Source: Sphagnum magellanicum
Taxonomy: Eukaryota > Streptophyta > Sphagnopsida > Sphagnales > Sphagnaceae
Assembly: GCA_021904315.1 (NCBI GenBank)
Contig: CM038920.1
Coordinates: 7,440,001 to 7,504,000, forward strand
Length of the DNA: 64,000 bases
Reading direction: 5' to 3'
Shown: positions 6,126 to 58,554 of the stretch, piece after piece
Layout of the letters: each line of letters starts with the position of its first letter
Position numbering within the stretch: the first letter of the stretch is position 1
The notes under the pieces: generated by a model
The model's database searches: none
What the model saw: the letters and a program-made list of their open reading frames with translations, nothing else
What the model was told of the DNA's origin: nothing
Position numbers and translations under genes: made by a program

Positions 6126-7160
6126 GAGCATCTCCACCCCACTGCAGGGGACACTCTTGATATTAAATTTGGCAATAGGATATGTAAATTTTTTTTGTTG
6201 TGCATTAAATATGACAAAAATGTCAAGGCCATGAGGGATCCCTTTTTTTTAAAAAAAATTGTTATGATTTTGATTAGTGATAAAGATTGATTTAAATATA
6301 AAACTTAAATGATCTTTTACAGTTTAAAATGAAAATTTTAATGTTTATGGATGTGGACATTAAATATTAAATGTTAATTTTTTTTAAAAAAAAGTGTAGT
6401 TTACACTTGTGAAGTGGAAATCAGACTGACATGATTTAGGTTTTCTCATTCCATAATGGCCTTGGTGAACATGCATAATGTATTTTCAGGGCATCTTACG
6501 ACGCATAATTTTCTCACCAAACCTGAAGTAGGAGATTTCCTGTAATAAAAAAAACATGGAATTTTTTTTCATAAATTAATTTGGACCATCGTTGTTATGT
6601 ATGGAAAGTTTATGTAAGTGCATATGAGCCATTAATCATTATGCATGGGAAGGCACTAATATTATGTGTTCCCTATACTTTAAAGACTTTTAGGCTGATT
6701 TTTGTATTGTAGTTGGAGGTGTTGGATATCAACATCTTATAAGTTATTTTAAGTTTTAAATATTTGTGCTTTATGCATTTAAATATTTTGGAATCTATGA
6801 GTCTCTTGACTTTAACTTAGTTAAGTAACCCATTGAAAGAGATGTTCACTTTAGTTACGATGGAGTTAATATTTGCATGGGATGATAACCTTGTGCATGT
6901 ATTTTTGCATGTGATATTAAAGAAAGTAATATGTGCATGTGAGGTGTTCAACTCTGATTAGGAGTAACCCAAAGCTTGAGAATTAATTGTAAAGTTTATA
7001 GCAAAATGTGTCACCTTATGATTGGGTGGAGACTTAAAGAGTACATTATAAAATTTGTGTTTTACTCATCTTTGTTATCTTATTGTTCCACTCTCAATTT
7101 TCAACTTACAAGAGGGCATTACAAGGTCAAAATTTTCTTTACAAAAGGTTGTGATTAATC
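6126..7160. other. AT-rich spacer
   Basis: Very AT-rich sequence with homopolymer runs. No coding pattern or repeat structure is recognised. Confidence 0.5.
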
Positions 7161-7177
7161 CAGGCCTCATAAGTTTT
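7161..7177 (+). repeat. Left terminal inverted repeat of the hAT-like element
   Basis: Seventeen bases that recur exactly, inverted, at 9499-9515. The CAG start is usual for hAT ends. Confidence 0.8.
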
Positions 7178-7262
7178 GAGATTTGCTAAAAATAGCCACC
7201 GAGATCTCAAAGTCAAGTCCATTGCAGTCTCAAAACTAACAAAGTTATGCGGGATCACCAGA

Positions 7263-9425
7263 ATGACCAGCAAGAAGGCGACCTCGTTCCAGAAGGCGCA
7301 CGCGTTGGACTTCGCCTTCAAGATCGTCTTGATAGATGTTCATGGTGACATCACGGTCCGATGCTTGTTCTGCTTGTACTAGGGCCGAGATGTGGTCGAG
7401 GTCGGCATCGCGGGGCAGAAGCGTAAGTAGCGCAACGACATCAAATATTTCAGGAAGCCGTCCTCCTCGTTCAAGTACCTTAGTCACCACGAAAGGCAGC
7501 ACACGGCATCGTGGACGAAGTACCAAGGGATGTCAGTCAACCAAAAGAAACAATATTTCAATGGGCGCATCAAGGTGACCAACATGTTGCATCACCACTT
7601 TGATCTAGACAAGGACACGTACGAGTTCTTCATTTGTACCGAGATTATCGATGTCATCATTGGCGACCTTTTCTTTTGCGATGATGAACAACTCAAAAAC
7701 ATTGACGCCGACGCGGTTCGCAAGAAACTCATCGAGAAGTAGAATGAGAAAAAGAATGCGATGAAGCTGTTCTGCAAGGAGAACGATGCGCCCATCTACA
7801 CGGTGACCATCAAGGACATCCTGCACTTCGACCTGGCCATGGACTACGTCGGCATCGGCCTGTCGGAACGACAGACGACGACAGCCATCCAGAAAGCCAA
7901 GGATCGCACAAAGATGGCGAAACTTGCTGGCCTCAATGATCGCATTGTCGGTCAGTACACGCGCGTCCTTGTCGTTGTTGCAATGCAACAGATCGTCGAC
8001 ATCCTTGACGATGAGTCGGTTTGGGCCCTGTCACTGGTTGGTGATGGAAGTGCGCATCACGGCCAGTCGTTCTTCGACATGCGCGTATGTGTTTGCTATC
8101 ATGGCAAGTTGGTCAACTTGCACCTCGTCACGATGCCCTTGTTCGAACACCATTCCACTGTTAACATTTTCAATCTGATCGCCAAGTTCATGGATGCGTT
8201 ATACATCAAGTGGCATGCCAAGCTGATCAGTGTGTCGACGGACGGCGAGAACAGCATGACAGGCCGTCATGCTGGCGTCGTCACCCGCCTTGTCAATTGC
8301 ACCGACAACGATGTGTTGTGCATCTAGTGCGCACCGCATCAGATCGACATTGTGGTTGAGGCGACAGTTGAGGGCATCGACAACGACGTTTGGGTCAAGC
8401 AGGCCTACACATTCTCGGTCTACCTGCGCACATAGGATAACCTGATCATTGCCATGAATGTCAAGTGCCCAAAGAAGACGAATTGTTGGGCGCACTTGGG
8501 CCACCTATTGAACTTCTACAAGTCATATCGCCACCCGCTCTTGGAGCACACCAAGGACAAGCGGTCCAACCTGATGCTGTTGGACCAGTGGTGGATCATC
8601 ACGTACGCAATGGCGCTGGCGATCGACGCAATCAACGTCATGTTGGCCCAATTGCAAGCCAGGTCCTTACTGATCAACCAGCAGGAAACTCTCGTGCATA
8701 ATTTGCTCGGCACGATCATTGCCATGTTTGAGATCGAGTGTGGCGATGCTGACAGTGACAAGGCCCGTGAGGACGACGCCTATGTGCAGCAGGGCTAGTT
8801 ACGCATCTCGACTGTGGCGATTGTCAACCACATCGAGAATCAAGGCTTGTTTGTGCGTGACTACTATGAGCGCCTTGAAATAGCTTATCAACAAAATGTG
8901 ATCAATCACATCGCCACGTACGCGATGGTGTTGATCGTTGGGTTGTAGTCGATTAAGGCTGAGCGGGATGGCGACAATTGCGCGTTGGACAAGGACATGC
9001 CCCCTGTGCTGCCCGCTCAGCTAATCAAGCTGCATCATGGCGTCTTCCTAAAGGATGTGCTGGACCCGTTCCGATAGCATGTCTCCTCATTTTGGTCCGA
9101 GGAGAGTGTGGAGGCAGGTTGAGGCCGAACATCGTGAGCTTCTCCAGCTTTATAACTCCGACACCATCCAACGCGACGTCATTGACAAACACGATCACAC
9201 GACCATGTTCAATGATACGTGGGACTGTGCCCCGGGTCGGTTCAAGCGCCTGCGCTCGTTCTGCGACAGGTTGACAACCGTGCTTGCCAACACAACATTT
9301 GTCGAGTCGAACTTTTTGATCCTGAAATGGGAGTTGGATAAAGTCGCACGGTGCTCATGCACCTGTCGCTTGAAGGAATCTTCCAAACCAAGCAGCACTT
9401 CGTCCTGCAAACGCTTCTGCGTTGA
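7263..9425 (+). pseudogene. Broken hAT-family transposase
   Basis: From ATG 7263 a frame of about 720 codons can be followed to TGA 9423-9425. Order of parts: an N-terminal zinc-finger-like patch (CLFC, later SHHERQH); a middle RNase-H-like transposase core with the well-kept blocks SVWALSLVGDGS, VSTDGENSMTGRHAG and CAPHQID; and a C-terminal hAT dimerisation-type end (TTFVESNFLILKWE, then HLSLEGIF). The frame is interrupted by eight stops, at 7380, 7428, 7740, 8325, 8433, 8796, 8946 and 9075, every one TAG. It also has two frame changes, near 9100-9118 and near 9343. Long uninterrupted stretches between them show that loss of function is fairly recent. Codons are GC-rich at third positions, unlike the host genes nearby. 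hAT assignment is from the C-terminal block, the termini and the overall family resemblance. Confidence 0.75.
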
Positions 9426-9498
9426 ACACAACGAGATCAAATACAACACCATGTGTTGTGTCAAAACTAAGCTAGTTTTGTTAAAGTTTAGATTTCTA

Positions 9499-9515
9499 AA
9501 AACTTATGAGGCCTG
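9499..9515 (-). repeat. Right terminal inverted repeat of the hAT-like element
   Basis: Exact reverse complement of 7161-7177. Complementarity continues loosely inward. Confidence 0.8.
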
Positions 9516-9749
9516 CTTATGTGAGCATTTCATTTTTCAAAACATCCACCGTTGTTCATTGGTTGAACGAACCTTCCATTAATCACATGCATACCGCTGC
9601 CATTTGAATAAAAACACTTTCTTGCTTTACCCTAGGGAAGGCATGCTCTCATAGAGGCCTCCATTCAGCCCTACATCCTTAGGGTATGGCCCTTGAGGCT
9701 ACAAGCCACAAATTAGGGGAGGCCATGTGGAGCATGTTGTCCCCTATCC

Positions 9750-9860
9750 ATATTTATGGTTTAAGACTCAAATGGATCTACATCTTTCCATTTCATTTTG
9801 AAGGTTTAAGGCTAAAGTGGGTTGAGGTTTTGCCCTTTCAATTTGAACTAGGATTTAATC
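9750..9860 (+). repeat. Degenerate copy of the 5990-6080 telo-box segment
   Basis: The order of words (GGTTTAA..CTCAAATGGAT..TTTC..TTTTGAAGGTTTAAGGCT..GGGTT) follows that at 5992-6080 with many substitutions. The two copies lie on either side of the hAT-like element and its AT-rich flanks. Confidence 0.55.
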
Positions 9861-18240: not shown

Positions 18241-20660
18241 CCAAAAATATGGACACTTCCGAGTGGTTGGTTGCTGTTGTTGTTTGGCCCAATGTAAAGA
18301 ATTGATGTAAGTAGCGGTTGGTTGGTGTTATCTAGGGCATAAAACAAATAAAGTGAAACATTTAACAAAATACCCACCTGGAGACTACCAACCTCTTCTC
18401 TTTGGGTACAAAATATGCAAAGAGTGGCTGGTTGGTTTAGGTTTTTTTTTTTTTTTGGCCTATGTAAAAATGTAAGTGAGAAGGTTGGTCGGTGTTGTGT
18501 TGTTTGCATGTAAAGAAAAAAAAGCGGTAAAAATTTATTCTGTGGTTAGGTTGGTTTGTATTGATGGCTGAACATCGAGAGTGATTCTTCATGCTAAAAT
18601 GTGGGGGCTAAGTTTTGGGGGGAGGGGGTGTTGGTTGTTGGTTGATGGTTGATTCTTTGGGGATAGTTTTTCTTTTTGTTTACGTATGTAGAAATGTAAG
18701 TAGGGGTTGGTTGGTATTGTTTCTTGGCATATGTAAAATTGTAAGAAGGGATCGGTCGGTATTGTTTCTTTGCGTATGTAAAAATGTAAGTAGGGATTGG
18801 TTGGTATTGTTTCTTTGCATATGTAAAAACGTATATAGTTGTTGGTGGGTGTTGTGTGCATATAAAGAAAAAAAAGAAGGTGCAAATTTTATGTCCAGTT
18901 AGTTTGTATTTGTGACCAAACAAGAAGAGTGATTTATTCTTCATGCTCAAATGTGAGGGGGTAAGTTTTGTGGGATTTTAGTGTTAGTTGACTCTTGTTG
19001 GTATTGTTTCTTTGCATATGTGAAAATGTAAGTAGGGATTGGTTGGTATTGTTTCTTTGCATATGCAAAAATGTAAGCAGGGATGGGTTGGTATTGTTTT
19101 TTTGGTTATGCAAAAATGTAAGTAGGGATGGGTTGGTATTGTTTTTTTGCGCATGTAAAAATGTAAGTAGGGATGGGTTGGTATTGTTTCTTTGCATATG
19201 CAAAAATGTAAGCAGGGATGGGTTGGTATTGTTTTTTTGCTTATGCAAAAATGTAAGTAGGGATGGGTTGGTATTGTTTTTTTTGCGTATGTAAAAATGT
19301 AAGTAGGAATGGGTTGGTATTGTTTCTTTGCATATGCAAAAATGTAAGTAGGATTAGGTTGGTATTGTTTCTTTGCATATGTGAAAATGTAAGTAGGGAT
19401 TGGTTTGTATTGTTTCTTTGTGTATGCAAAAATGTAAGTAGGGTTAGGTTGGTATTGTTCCTTTGCATATGTAAAAACATATATAGTTGTTGGTTGGTGT
19501 TGTGTTGTGTGCATATAAAGAAAAAAAAAAGGCCAAAATTTTATATCTGGTTAGTTTGTATTTGTTTCCAAACAAGAAGAAGTGATTCTTCATACTAAAA
19601 TGTGAGGGGGTAAGTTTTGTGGGGTTTGATTGTTAGTTGACTCTTATTGGTATTGTTTCTTTGCGTATGTAAAAATGTAAGTAGGGGTCAGTTGGTATTG
19701 TTTCTTTGCATATGTAAAAATGTAAGTAGGGATTGGTTGGTATTGTTTTGTCTATGTAAAAACATATATAGTTGTTGGTCGGTGTTGTGGGCGTATGAAG
19801 AAAAAAAAGGTGAAAATTTCATGTCTGGTTAGTTTGTGTAGGGTAAAGCCTTAGGTCGAGGGCATTAGCAAAAATAAAGGTGCACCAGGCACGTATTTGT
19901 GGCCAAACAAGAAGAGTGATTGATTCTTGGTGCTAAAATGTGAGGGTTAAGTTATGTGGCATTTGAGTGTTAGTTGACTCTTGTTTGTATTTCTTTTTTT
20001 GCGTATCTAAAAATGTAAGTAGGGATCGGTTGGTATTGTTTCTTTGCATATGTAAAAACGTATATAGTTATCGGTTGGTGTTGTTTCTTTGCGTATGCAA
20101 GAATGTAAGTAGGGTTGGGTAGGTATTGTTCCTTTGTGTATACAAAAATGTAAGTAGGGATCGGTTGGTATTGTTCCTTTGTGTATGCAAAAATGTAAGT
20201 AGGGTTCGGTTGGTATTGTTTCTTGGCACATGTAAAAATGTTGATGGTTGTTGGTTGGTGTTGTGTTGTGTGCATATAAAGAAAGAAAAAAAGGCGAAAA
20301 TTTTATGTCCAGTTAGTTTGTATTTGTGGCGAACGAAGAAGAAGTGATTCTTCATACTAAAATGTGAGGGGTAAGTTTGGTGGGGTTTGATTGGTAGTTG
20401 ACTCTTATTGGTATTGTTTCTTTTGAGTATGTAAAAAATGTATTCGATTGGTATTCTTTCTTTGCGTAAGTAAAAATGTAAGTAGGTGTGGGTTGGTGTT
20501 GTGTGCATGTAAAGGAAAAAAAAGAGGTGAAAATCTTATGTCCGGTTAGTTTGTATTTCTTACCGAACAACAACGAGAGTGATTCTTGGTGCTCAAATGT
20601 GATGTGAGGGGTAAGTTTTGTGGAGTTTGATTGGTAGTTGACTCTTGGAGTGCAAAAATG
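18240..20660. repeat. Composite satellite: 45-bp units and ~135-bp spacers
   Basis: Arrays of a 45-bp unit (core TTGGTATTGTTTCTTTGC, then ATGTAAAAATGTAAGTAGGG) run at about 18690-18840 (4 copies), 18990-19480 (11), 19640-19770 (3), 20000-20240 (5) and 20405-20490. Between arrays sits a spacer of about 135 bp (AAAGAAAAAAAAGG..TTTTATGTC..TTAGTTTGTATTTGTG..AAACAAGAA..GTGATTCTTCATGC..AAATGTGAGGGGTAAG) at about 18500-18660, 18855-18990, 19500-19640, 19785-19985, 20255-20405 and 20500-20650. The 45-bp period is a multiple of three, so both strands show spurious 15-residue protein repeats. Degenerate units start near 18240. Confidence 0.85.
19837..19893. mobile_element. Short (about 57 bp) insertion in a satellite spacer
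   Basis: Sister spacers read TTAGTTTGTATTTGTG without a break. Here about 57 bp that begin GTAGGGTAAAGCC interrupt that word. The inserted piece resembles the palindrome-bearing repeat at 11261-11290. No clear target duplication beyond GT is visible. Confidence 0.45.
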
Positions 20661-29130: not shown

Positions 29131-29540
29131 ATTTATTTTGCATTGAAAAACTATTTACATTGGAAAATTGTTTAGATGGAAAAATTGTTTGAATTGAAAA
29201 ATTGCTAACATTTTTAAAAAACTAGGAAAAATATTTTTATTAAAAATTTGTATGTATTGAAAAATTATTTTGATTGAAAAACTACTGACATTGAAAAATT
29301 ATTTGCATTAAAAAAAATTATATTGGAAAATCATTTACATTGAAAAATTGATTTCATTGAAAATGTTACTTGCATTGAAAAAAAAATTTCATTGAAAAAA
29401 CTACTTACATTGAAAAACTGCTTATATTGAAAAATTGTTTGTGTTGAAAAAATTACTTTCATTAAAAAATTACTTCAATTGAAAAACTACTTTCATTGAA
29501 ATTTTTTTTCACATTCAAAATGTTGCATTTAAAATTTTTT
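29130..29540. repeat. Degenerate tandem repeat of ATTGAAAAATT-type units
   Basis: About eighteen copies of a 20-24 bp unit with core CATTGAAAAAYT followed by a short T-rich or AC-rich tail. Copies differ by several bases and in length. Confidence 0.7.
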
Positions 29541-35469: not shown

Positions 35470-35815
35470 CTTGTTTGCAAATGGAAATGGGAGCTTCTTA
35501 TTTCAGGTTTGCTTAATGCTTGTCCTTTTGAATTTGTTTTCTTCCCCTTAAGTTCATTTGAGTTGCTCCTGTAATTTCGATCTTGCAAATGGAGTTTTCC
35601 ATTTTAGGCTTGCTTAATGGTTGCTCTTTTGAACTGGGTTTCTTCCCCTATTAAGTTCATTTCACTTGGTCTTCTAAATTTATTCTGCAAATGGAGTTTT
35701 TCATTTTAGGTTTGTCTAAAGCTTCTTCTTTTGAAATGGTTTTCTTCCCCTCAGTTCATTTCACTTGTTCCTCCAATTTTATTCTGCAAATGGAGTTTTT
35801 TTCATTTTACTTTAA
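35470..35815 (+). repeat. Tandem repeat of about 100-108 bp, about 3.4 copies
   Basis: The word TTYTGCAAATGGAGTTTTTC recurs near 35475 (variant), 35584, 35684 and 35783, each time followed by ATTTTAGGYTTG..TCTTTTGAA..TTTCTTCCCC and AGTTCATTTCACTTG. Copies differ by several bases. Confidence 0.75.
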
Positions 35816-37052: not shown

Positions 37053-40000
37053 TCAGTAAATGAAGGGGATGAGTTTGTATCGCACTCGCTTGCAGTGGGC
37101 CTCCCAGTACTTGTGGTATTTTTGTCTCATCCGTTTGTCATCTCGGGTTGCACAATTGACCAATATAGCTGTCACGAAGCATGCATGAAAGTAAGGCATT
37201 GCCTGCACAAACACACAGTTTGTTTTAGATCTAACCCTTTTGCAAATTACCTTCCCATCTTCTTGACATGCCAGAACCAGTCTAGTACAACCTTCCCACA
37301 ATACTAAGAGTTAAGACATATTGAATTGATGTGGTGTGCTTCAGTGTGCAAACGGTGAAATGGTGGTAAATTCATTGCAGTGAAAATGTCCATCCACCTA
37401 TTGAATGAGAATCTTTCTCAAATCAGTATTTGCTGGGACAACCAAAAATGAGAAACAGTTGGGAGAAATGGGGATAAATTCGTTGGATTGAAATTGTCCA
37501 TCTACCTAGTGAATGAGGATCTTCTCACATCAGCATTTGTTGGGACCAAAAAAATTGAGAATTGATAGCTGATCAATGTGCTTGGAATCAATTTCTGTTT
37601 GTAGAAAAGGAGAGAGGTGTTCGGAAGCGCACATGTTTGAAGAGAACAGGTAAGGTCCAGCAGATGGCAACACCAATTTCTGGGGTATAGTGAAAATGTC
37701 TAGCAACACTCCACCTGTTATTATCCCCAAAGACACCCAAGCAAACCAGTTACAAGAATCACTAAGTCCCAAAAAAGAAGGTTTCATGCCAAGCTCCATG
37801 GAGCTGAGAGATGTGACAATATGGGCACTCACCAGCCAGCTGTGAGAAGCAGGTTATGCTTGTGCTCTCCATACTCTGTTACATAGTGGAGTTGGATCTG
37901 GACATGGCAACCACTTCCCACTAGTACCCGTCAGTGCTGATTTAAATCCTCTATGAAGATACTCTCATTCTCTTTGAATTCCTTCCGATGGCTGTGCAGT
38001 CTTGATCTTTGGAAGCAGATTATTGTGGGGATTGCTTTACACAGAATTTGTATTGCTAGTCTACAGAAGAGGCAATGATTCCCAAGAGATCTATTCAAGG
38101 TAGTGAAGGTGGACGTCCAAACCTTGCAAGGAATTTTCCCCCAAATCCTGCATTTGCCATTGGAGTTGATGAATTGTAAACGTTGCACATAGCAATCATA
38201 AACGATGTAGTTGCAGGCCATCCCAGCTCCAAGCATTCCAAGTGCTAGCTGTTGCACCACATTGCTTACCCTTTTTATTGTCGGGAAAAATCCAAAAAGA
38301 TTTGAAGTCAGTCAAATTCTGAGAAATTACTCAAAAAAAATTAGAGAAAAAAAATTCCATTTGTTTCCTTAGTTCAAAATGCAATTTTTTTTTCCTGCAT
38401 AAATTTGCTGGCCTCAATTTTGTGATCTGTTTCATCTTCCTAAAAGCACAGATGGATGTATTGTGTTTGGTGTTGGTCAAGATGGGTACTCCTTGCCCTA
38501 GGTGAATTGGATGTGAAACCAGATAAAGATTCACTGATGTGTGAACTGCTGGGATCCATGCCAAGCAAGTAAAAACTGCCAGAAAGCCAGCTGCAAACCT
38601 CACCATTCAAAGTGCCCATGTGTTCAATTGTCCATCATTTTATGTTGAGTTTCTCCCATTTTCACAACTTTTACAGTCATTGCCATGTAAGTAGCTCATT
38701 AGCTTTTGAATAACTTAGAGTAACAGGCTTAGTCCAAATTGGGTACAATTATAAAATGAAAGAAAGCAATGCAGAAGGTGATGAGGTGTTTGTTTCAATT
38801 TGAGGTGTGGCTGTACATACCACGATCATGGGCCATCTCCATTGAACGGTAGAATTGAGGTTCTGTCCAGAAAAACTTGGTGATGTATATCAGCATAAGT
38901 ACAGTTGTCACCAACATCGAGTCTGCAATCTTTCCTTGAGTATCACGCTGGACATGACCAGTTTCTTGAGTGTGAGGTTATGTTTTATCAAGCATAACTT
39001 GTTTTTACATCACGAAAAATGGAATAAAGGCTATAAGTTGGAAAAGGTGTATGGAGGAGGAATGGGAGAGAGCAAGGGAGACAAGAGTGAGCAATTCACC
39101 TGCTTGATGGCAAAGCTGACAACAATAATAGCCCAAGACATAATTGCAAATCGGCAATTTAGGAAGACCTTAATATCAAAATGGCTTGTAATCCTTGGGT
39201 ACAACTCCATTCCCTAACCCATTCCATCCACACCCACAACCACTTATATTTGTTGATCCAAAGCATGCAGCAAATGAACAGTACAAAGGCAGATGAATCA
39301 TCATCATATCATCTCCTTACTACAATGCTCATAGTGGCCAGAATTGATGTGAATTTCCATGAGTCATCATCAGCATCTGACTTGCAGTCAATTATTTGCA
39401 CAACAGTACATTACCCAGAAAATGTCGCCAAGGATGTTTCCTGATGATCCCCAATCTTCAGAAGATGGCGCCATATGACCCTGTACACACACATGCACAC
39501 CCGCACATATGTGATGATCACAACATGATGGGGCTGATGCAATTGTGGAACAGTTAAAAAGAAGAAGAGATAGAGAGATAATATGTGACAGAAACAAAAG
39601 GAATTCAACTCACTTTGCAGTAGAGCAGAATTGTTGCAACATAACTTGCGATCACGAGCACAGAGAAGATTTCTCCAATGTAGTCATACACAAGGCCTGG
39701 ATTGAATAAGCTCTCCCTGTTTCCATCAGCTCTCCCATCATCTATGATTAGTGATTGCAGGACACAGAGATCCTTCATGAAGTGAGGATTGACTTAAAGG
39801 AAGAATCCCATGTTGAAACCTTCTTCTTCTTCATCCCTACAGTAGTATGTGCACTGAATACTTGATGCAGACACAAATTCAGATCACTGTCTATGAGCTT
39901 AAGAAATCCAACATTTTGCAGGGAAAAAAAAAGCCCAAGTAGCAAGAGTGTTTGAGATAATGCTTGTGGAGCATCATCTTCTTCCTTTCACTACCCTGTA

Positions 40001-41383
40001 TGTCACAATCATTCAGATGACCGTTTATAAGCTAAGAAATCCAACAACATTTTGTAGCCAAAAAAGGTGCAAGTAATGAGAGTGTGTGAGATGATGCTCA
40101 TGTTTTGCAGTCATCATCTTCCTTTTTTCTACCCCTATATCTCACAAACATTCAGACCACCATTTATAAGCTAAGAAATCCAACATCTTGCAGCAAGAAA
40201 AAAGTTGCAAGTAACAAGAATGTTTGAGATGATGTTTGTGTTTGAGCATCTTCTTTCTTTCACTATCCTCTATGTTTCCATTGCAGCAAAAAATCCTATG
40301 ACACATATACAATGCATGAATGGACGCACAAGATGATCTCCTTGTGTATATCTTGTGTTTTGTTTGATACATGGCCACAAACATACATGCCAAGCAGGAA
40401 GGAGAGAGAGAGAGAGAGAGAACTCACTTCCAAACAAGGTAGTAGACAGCAAGAGTCACCATGTATGCTGTAAAACCATTCTTCTGCAATAAGAACCCAA
40501 ACAAAAGAGAAGTTGTAAATACAGGATCCTGATCCAATTGCCACAGGTGGCCAAGGCTCCTGCTACCCACCATTGCTCCAAAGAGCAAGAAGAAGAATTC
40601 AAAGCCAGAAAGTGATATTAGGAAGTAGGAGCATTGGCTTAGACTCTTCACCATGAAAGCAAGCAAGCAAGCAAGCAATATTCCTCATATGCTCAGTCTG
40701 CTCATGAGACATGCAAGGAGCTTGACTGGATGAGAATTTCATTTGAATTTTTTGTTTTTGGTTTTTTGCTTTGCAGGCAAGAAGGATGATGGAGAAGCAT
40801 GTGTGCAAAGCCTCTTTCATGCAAGTTTCATGCAAGAAGGATGATGGAGAAGGCTCAGGGGCATGCATGCTAAGCCTTTTTTATGCAAGTTTCATGGCAA
40901 GAAGTCATTGAGAGGAGTAAGGGTGATGTACCTTGTACACAGGCCGATGTCCAGCTGGTGATTGTGGGCCAATGAACCTTTCAGCTGGCAAAAACACTTG
41001 CAGAATTGCTTCAAACGCTGCAAATGCAGCAACCATTTTACATGCGCGGATGGTGGGGTATGGCCACACATCTCGGACGCCCCTCATGCCCTTGGCTCGA
41101 AAGAATCTGTATGATTTCTCTACCGAACCTTCCACGTGGATCATGGTATACCATCTGAAACAACAAAAACAGCAACACCAAGGTCAGATTAAGGAAGTGA
41201 TTGCAATTTAAAGCAGGAGGAGGAGGAGGAGGAAGAAAGAGGGCGGAAAACATACATGAATACGATGAACATCGGGGAAACGATCATCAACAGTAGCATG
41301 GCCGCCGTCCTGACAGGTTTCGGATGTGCCGGCACCTTCTGATAGAACGCTTCTGGTTGCGACCGACCTCGAATGCTCTTCAT
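37053..41383 (-). CDS. DWF5: Sterol delta-7 reductase (7-dehydrocholesterol reductase)
   Basis: The gene has twelve exons in gene order: 41383-41256, 41154-40932, 40483-40428, 39716-39614, 39480-39415, 39213-39100, 38947-38821, 38590-38490, 38248-38123, 37897-37833, 37714-37633 and 37202-37053. All introns are GT-AG, every phase fits, and the total is 446 aa (Arabidopsis DWF5 is about 430). Diagnostic blocks: IWYTMIHVEGSV; FLPAERFIGPQSPAGHRPVY; GHMAPSSEDWGSSGNI (from residue 171); GMELYPRITSHFDIKVFLNC; DSMLVTTVLMLIYITKFFW; NSNGKCRIWGKIP; WWSVARHFHYTPEI; and the C-terminal signature RDDKRMRQKYHKYWEAHCKR before YKLIPFIY. It is a multi-pass ER membrane enzyme of the ERG4/ERG24 family that reduces the C7-C8 double bond of sterols with NADPH, feeding phytosterol and brassinosteroid synthesis. 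The weakest junction is the GA/GTACCC donor at 38490; the match on both sides supports it. A GA tract abuts the start codon. Confidence 0.93.
39895..40275 (-). repeat. Intronic tandem repeat (about 130 bp, three copies)
   Basis: Within the third intron of the sterol reductase, the plus-strand word TAAGCTAAGAAATCCAACA recurs near 39897, 40028 and 40168. Each is followed by a TTGCAG-like word, GCAAGTARCAAGARTGT, GAGATGATG, a CATCTTCTTTC word and CTACCC/CTATCC. Copies are diverged. Confidence 0.7.
40774..40893 (-). repeat. Intronic tandem duplication
   Basis: In the second intron of the sterol reductase, GCAAGAAGGATGATGGAGAA occurs twice about 56 bp apart, each time followed by an AAGCCT word and TTTCATGCAAGTTTCAT or a variant. 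An AAGC run lies nearby at about 40655-40678. Confidence 0.65.
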
Positions 41384-58349: not shown

Positions 58350-58490
58350 GGGGAACCCTCTCTGTTAACACAAGTAGCACCCTAAGTACATTCTCTGGGG
58401 AACCCTCTCTGTTAACACAAGTAGCGCCCTAAGTACATTCTCTGGGGAACACTCTCTGTTAACACGAGTAGCACCCGAAGTACATTCTCT
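58350..58490 (+). repeat. Three tandem copies of a 47-bp unit
   Basis: Copies start at 58350, 58397 and 58444 and begin GGGGAACCCTCTCTGTTAAC. They differ by only about one to five bases, so the array is young compared with the sequence around it. Confidence 0.9.
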
Positions 58491-58554
58491 GACTACGTAA
58501 AATCAGAGAATGATGTGTAAAAACTCCAAATTCCTGTTAAAAGATATCACAATG

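Follow-up and report, generated by a model that had tools for sequence, protein, structure and literature searches.

A probable dead hAT-like DNA transposon from a large and diverse family in the peat moss Sphagnum magellanicum

Introduction

Transposons of the hAT Buster group are described as elements under 4 kb with short terminal inverted repeats (TIRs) that generate 8-bp target site duplications (TSDs) of the consensus nnnTAnnn (PMC3517528). In the moss Physcomitrium, methylation of CHG sites requires CMT, which belongs to a type of enzyme described as specific to plants (PMC6453930). Neither 5-methylcytosine (5mC) nor a 5mC methyltransferase was found in Phytophthora infestans and P. sojae, according to PMC6211444. 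Transfer of hAT elements between oomycetes and mosses was named in no title or abstract opening among the matches listed from the open-licence literature, and the main text of the Sphagnum divinum paper PMC9946827 does not contain the whole words hAT, transposon or oomycete.

The DNA analysed here, referred to as the window, is a stretch of 64,000 nucleotides from the genome of S. magellanicum (assembly GCA_021904315.1, contig CM038920.1, positions 7,440,001 to 7,504,000). A first-pass annotation had proposed a hAT-like element of oomycete affinity at positions 7161-9515 of the window. With a probability of about 0.87, the results presented below indicate that the element is a dead hAT-like cut-and-paste DNA transposon belonging to a large and diverse peat-moss family, and that it originated in a burst of copies followed by decay associated with methylation.

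Results

Structure and insertion site

The element spans 2355 bp with a GC content of 0.506 and is bounded by inverted repeats identical at 17 of 17 bases, confirming the exact ends that had been reported for it. On a base-composition model, ∼0.04 exact 17-base inverted pairs lying within 4 kb of each other are expected per 64 kb. The terminal repeat of distant relatives is recognisable as a CAGGCCTCATAA core with mismatches, and a pattern scan of the genome detected 151 occurrences of the end motif with at most two mismatches versus 26 for the reversed control. The coordinates of the features are given in Table 1.

The scan also returned pairs of end motifs that span 312-313 bp and enclose a third motif, at C1:7670245-7670557, C2:7720853-7721165, C3:3262122-3262434 and C12:3930799-3931110. 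To judge from the pattern coordinates, these pairs look like a family of non-autonomous miniature elements (MITEs).

The window copy is not flanked by an 8-bp target duplication, the octamer on the left being GATTAATC and that on the right CTTATGTG; the nearest match at 7 of 8 positions to the left octamer is located at 9577. The 600-base flanks consist of two different dispersed repeats, with 42 matches in the genome for the left flank and 41 for the right, each flank itself included, and genome searches with the flanks revealed no joined empty site.

Table 1. Positions of features of the element and its flanks within the window.
Feature	Position	Strand	Remarks
Left terminal inverted repeat, 17 bp	7161..7177	+	17/17 match to right end; also in sister copies
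Right terminal inverted repeat, 17 bp	9499..9515	-	pairs with left end
Left flank GATTAATC	7153..7160	.	fits nnnTAnnn, TA at centre
Right junction CTTATGTG	9516-9523		no copy of left flank
Older dispersed host repeat, left of element	6705..7108	.	limits by eye from match table
Older dispersed host repeat, right of element	9552..9754	.	limits by eye from match table
Remnant of transposase gene (frame 0, starting at 7263)	7263..9425	+	
Eight in-frame TAG codons	7380..9077	+	starting at 7380, 7428, 7740, 8325, 8433, 8796, 8946, 9075
Out-of-frame stretch	9114..9339	+	from 1-bp extra base (near 9113) to 1-bp missing base (near 9339)
CxxC ... HxxxxH motif	7359..7502	+	resembles BED-type zinc finger; conserved columns; name BED putative
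Block VGDGSAHH	8037..8060	+	candidate first catalytic Asp (residue 261); putative role
Block VSTDGENSMTGRHAG	8232..8276	+	candidate second catalytic Asp (residue 327); putative role
Block CAPHQID	8328..8348	+	hAT CxxH-like motif
Block TTFVESNF	9292..9315	+	candidate catalytic Glu (codon 9304-9306), in frame-shifted stretch; putative role
Block HLSLEGIF	9360..9383	+	back in frame 0

The relic transposase gene

The gene had been credited with long readable frames, a description that does not hold. The main frame (7263-9118) is interrupted by eight TAG codons among 618 codons, with no TAA or TGA, so that at most 194 aa can be read without a stop, and both single-base frame changes are unique to the window copy among 7 aligned copies. 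The restriction of the stops to TAG suggested that TAG might be read as Gln. That candidate was ruled out by the codons of the sister copies, which at five of the eight positions (7428, 8325, 8433, 8946 and 9075) are mostly CAG, CAA or TGG, and by the deamination spectrum described below; TAA and TGA stops are also present in the sister copies.

The three blocks quoted in the first-pass annotation (VSTDGENSMTGRHAG, CAPHQID and HLSLEGIF) were all located, and the proteins of the family share an order in which a CxxC...HxxxxH start is followed by two Asp blocks, CxPHQ and a C-terminal VESDFS block. The second-Asp region, the CxPHQ block and the C-terminal VESDFS / LEGI blocks presumably resemble those of a hAT-like family abundant in Phytophthora. 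The first candidate catalytic Asp is Asp in 25 of the 27 family rows and Asn in the other two, one of which is L016; the second is Asp in 19, Asn in seven and Gly in one. The candidate Glu is Glu in eight of the nine rows caught by the search pattern, which missed 8 of 17 rows, and Lys in L034. In hhalign, the VSTDGENSMTGRHAG block aligned weakly with the corresponding region of a hAT that Pfam recognises. Full-length open frames occur elsewhere in the genome in the relatives L016 and L034 (729 and 745 aa), each of which misses one candidate catalytic residue, Asn replacing the first Asp in L016 and Lys replacing Glu in L034. Since neither frame carries the full set, the residues have been wrongly assigned unless both frames are inactive. 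A single-sequence structure model of the window protein had a mean pLDDT of 33, too low to bring out the RNase H-like transposase fold expected of a hAT.

A dispersed family in the moss genome

The same assembly (438,994,042 bases in 31 contigs) was searched for relatives. A DNA search with the element returned 39 matching stretches. Besides C14, on which the window lies, contigs C1, C5 and C8 carry near-full-length relatives (74-84% identity), and copies on C3 and C19 are each split into two pieces. A protein search returned at least 73 matching stretches, spread over 18 of the 31 contigs at 27-99% identity; the count is a lower bound, 71 of 208 candidates having been scored, and takes in the window copy as well as multiple fragments belonging to a single copy. 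The sister copies are 82-84% identical to the window copy, a difference of ∼16-18%. The sister copy at C3:5827261-5829706, the left half of which is L008, is interrupted by an insert of ∼2.4 kb.

Thirty loci were fetched from the protein matches and three of them (L020, L024 and L026) were excluded as fragments of copies already present, leaving 27 rows for a tree and 43 further matches outside it. The tree resolved eight lineages with stems of 0.31-0.74 changes per column and tips of 0.02-0.27.

Target site preference and hAT identity

TSDs were scanned in 28 copies, the split copy L008 being excluded. The duplication is perfect (8/8) in 14 copies, matches at 7/8 in four and at 6/8 in two, and matches at fewer positions or could not be judged in the remaining eight, the window copy among them. 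The TSD-bearing relatives are 2.4-2.8 kb long except for two of ∼3.5 kb. Among the 14 perfect TSDs, position 4 is T in 13 and position 5 is A in 11, both occurring together in 10; this frequency of TA at positions 4-5 compares with 6.5% TA in the window (P ∼1e-9). The family thus has the 8-bp TSDs (in relatives), short TIRs (17 bp) and size under ∼4-5 kb (2355 bp) of the hAT superfamily, together with the nnnTAnnn consensus of the Buster group.

Searches at the protein level gave a different picture. Pfam returned no match for the window protein P0001, the 729- and 745-aa frames or seven C-terminal segments, the only hits being unrelated with E of at least 0.08; PF05699, the hAT C-terminal dimerisation region, matched none of these sequences, and Pfam models at E up to 10 yielded nothing beyond weak unrelated hits. 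A search of PDB with the family profile retrieved no solved transposase (best E 0.75, unrelated), and no Buster proteins were among the Pfam and PDB matches. By hhalign, the family aligned weakly with two sets of Pfam-recognised hATs from the same genome (E 0.0067, probability 5.7%; E 0.58, probability 0.1%), and the two sets aligned with each other at E 0.0002 and a probability of 46.5%. By eye, no PF05699 match overlapped a family locus among the matches listed, for which 150 of 671 candidates were scored. hATs carry a SxxER(V/L)FS-like motif where the family has VESDFS, and homology of VESDFS to this C-terminal motif is plausible.

The label hAT-like given by the first-pass annotation therefore stands as regards anatomy (TIRs, size and the TSDs of relatives), but no Pfam hAT model matches. 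Judged from ends, size, TSD and target preference, hAT-like is the best name, and membership of the hAT superfamily is probable.

Decay of the copies

Five sister copies depart from their majority base at 1018 places in total, 788 of them being C>T or G>A; departures were counted against the majority of the five, so that a change present in two copies counts twice. The rate of C>T/G>A per site is 0.174 in CG, 0.157 in CAG, 0.213 in CTG, 0.207 in CCG and 0.052 in CHH. When changes were polarised in six sister copies, transversions made up 41 of the 89 changes common to all, 30 of the 200 found in a single copy and 1 of the 164 shared by some, a pattern pointing to one star-like burst followed by recurrent deamination. 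Transversions amount to 0.73% per sister copy. A stop at codon 160 (TAG or TAA) is shared by five of the six copies (L001-L005 and L008), and one at codon 40 (TAG) by four of them; parallel deamination is a simpler explanation of such shared stops than a stop-bearing progenitor moved in trans, because only one of the 164 changes shared by some copies is a transversion.

Between the burst and its sister lineage, changes at the three codon positions (sums over 10 pairs) number 1268, 917 and 2027, of which 275, 319 and 661 are transversions. The corresponding numbers within the burst are 1006, 682 and 1216, with 88, 64 and 104 transversions, so that the third-position excess is stronger between burst and sister lineage than within the burst.

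In view of the CG/CHG bias of the C-to-T spectrum and of CHG methylation via the plant-specific CMT, these copies most probably acquired their mutations in the genome of a plant that methylates its DNA, methylation being read here from the mutations themselves. The proposal of a fairly recent arrival is not supported, given the eight stops, the frame shifts, the 82-84% identity to sister copies and the lack of a target duplication around the window copy.

Coding composition

The 2-kb flanks have GC contents of 0.367 and 0.371, compared with 0.518 in 7263-9425, and the CpG observed/expected ratio (o/e) of the element is 1.05 vs 0.43 for the whole window. Across the 27 family rows, median GC3 is 0.726 (0.545-0.803) and median CpG o/e is 1.11 (0.85-1.21). 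The four rows of one lineage (L028, L029, L030 and L037) have a GC3 of 0.55-0.59, near that of host open reading frames (ORFs), and a CpG o/e of 1.00-1.09, unlike the host. For 11 within-lineage pairs, the upper bound of the founder GC3 is 0.60-0.86, with transition/transversion ratios of 4.8-24 in all 11.

Twelve Pfam-recognised hATs of the moss, drawn from 20 PF05699 loci mainly for longer open frames so that broken ones are under-represented, have a GC3 of 0.52-0.76 and a CpG o/e of 0.94-1.30. Four MULEs are intermediate (GC3 0.49-0.64, CpG o/e 0.74-0.98). Values are 0.36-0.55 and 0.24-0.38 for four Copia reading frames, and 0.41-0.54 and 0.20-0.72 for three window ORFs, of which all but one have a Pfam match. 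The earlier description of the element as compositionally foreign is consequently correct relative to its flanks (GC 0.506 for the whole element) but not relative to the 12 measured hATs of the same genome, which are similar. Since ordinary moss hATs look alike in GC3 and CpG, this clue weakens the case for a foreign origin of this one element.

Genomic context

The window contains an exon for MAP70, which is plant-specific (PF07058, E 3.7e-40), and a glycosyltransferase 8 (GT8) gene. Arrays of a 45-bp tandem repeat are located at 18685-20241; GC skew is strong at 18-21 kb, and an open frame of repetitive sequence lies at 18984-19550. Further tandem repeats at 29256-29501, 35485-35809, 39877-40273 and 58350-58491 have periods of 17-52, 102, 134 and 47 bp.

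Contamination of the assembly, which the first-pass annotation had listed as an alternative, is very unlikely in view of the copy number of a family dispersed through the same assembly (at least 73 stretches on 18 contigs), the TSDs and flanks made of genome-wide host repeats. That the locus is a contaminant contig or an assembly artefact has a probability close to nil, as no point in support of it was found, and the presence of the family on 18 contigs, the perfect TSDs of 14 of the 28 copies, the recurrent host repeats on both sides of the element and the plant genes of the same window all argue against it.

Discussion

The history proposed for the window element begins with a transposase of ∼730 aa predicted to comprise a zinc finger, a D/D/E-type core and a hAT-like C-terminal motif, with putative fold and catalytic residues, that would bind the short TIRs and cut the element out by a presumed cut-and-paste chemistry. 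Insertion at staggered cuts would create the 8-bp duplication, with a preference for nnnTAnnn. The window copy would derive from a single star-like burst that produced six or more copies. Methylation of CG and CHG sites by the plant may then have silenced it, and most of the changes it carries would be explained by methylcytosine deamination. The ends, the copies, the duplications in relatives, the target preference and the mutation spectrum are the directly supported parts of this history.

How the family came to be in the moss is a separate question. A recent single transfer from an oomycete accords with the contrast in composition between the element and its flanks and with the presumed resemblance of motifs; it is nevertheless highly improbable given eight stops, two frame shifts, a difference of ∼16-18% from sister copies, a decay spectrum of the plant type and a family far more diverse than one burst. 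Searches of IMG/VR, GTDB contigs, PLSDB, PDB, Pfam and PHROGs identified no convincing relative, and as none of these collections is devoted to oomycete or plant genomes, this negative result is uninformative. A GC-rich donor lacking 5mC would be in keeping with the composition of the family, which does not single out any one organism. Two readings fit this composition: the lineages entered repeatedly from 5mC-free hosts, or their source copies evade methylation.

Long vertical residence, in which the family is old in mosses and unmethylated, GC-rich active sources give rise to offspring copies that decay, has about an even chance of being correct. It is supported by the wide diversity within one genome, by coding constraint between lineages, by TSD-bearing copies in most lineages and by the similar composition of ordinary hATs. 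A long stay in a methylating, AT-rich genome is expected to cause loss of CpG and GC3, and most lineages are without such loss; their founder composition has not drifted towards the sampled host ORFs or Copia frames, which counts against residence. The same observation, that GC3 and CpG o/e are high relative to those frames and ORFs, favours the somewhat less likely alternative that the lineages diversified in other hosts, GC-rich and free of 5mC, with oomycetes as a candidate, and made several entries into the moss, every one followed by a short burst and then methylation decay. Also consistent with repeated entry are the high upper bound for founder GC3 in the 11 pairs, whose differences are mostly transitions, the long stems and short tips of the eight lineages, and the reported lack of 5mC in P. 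infestans and P. sojae (PMC6211444). The similarity of the 12 Pfam-recognised hATs and the intermediate values of the MULEs instead suggest that such composition may characterise active DNA transposons, which could evade methylation, one four-row lineage lies near host ORFs in GC3, and the comparators are few (12 hATs, four MULEs, four Copia frames and three window ORFs). The more specific proposal that the peat moss repeatedly took up hAT-like lineages from organisms without cytosine methylation, with oomycetes as leading candidate, and that each arrived GC3-rich and CpG-intact, burst and was then worn at CG and CHG sites, is rather unlikely on present evidence.

Irrespective of origin, the window copy is ordinary genome litter, one member of a large and varied family that is of greater interest. 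The family is diverse, has a Buster-type target preference, is unrecognised by Pfam and differs in composition from the few host ORFs and Copia frames sampled. If repeated uptake were true, composition and decay spectrum together would flag each entry and its age. A foreign origin, if true, would mean that the peat moss documents transposon transfer between microbes and plants as a recurring event, in which methylation decay would serve as a built-in marker of residence time open to testing in other bryophytes.

Among known systems, the hAT-like family of Phytophthora presumably shares the second-Asp, CxPHQ and VESDFS / LEGI blocks. With the Pfam-recognised hATs (PF05699) of the same moss, the family shares the order of the D and CxxH blocks and, across the 12 loci, a GC3-rich coding composition undepleted in CpG, but it differs from them in that profile similarity is only weak. 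The transposase differs from that of the Buster group in having no Pfam hAT match, so that the likeness to this group concerns ends and target sites, where the short TIRs, the size, the 8-bp TSD and the nnnTAnnn consensus are all alike.
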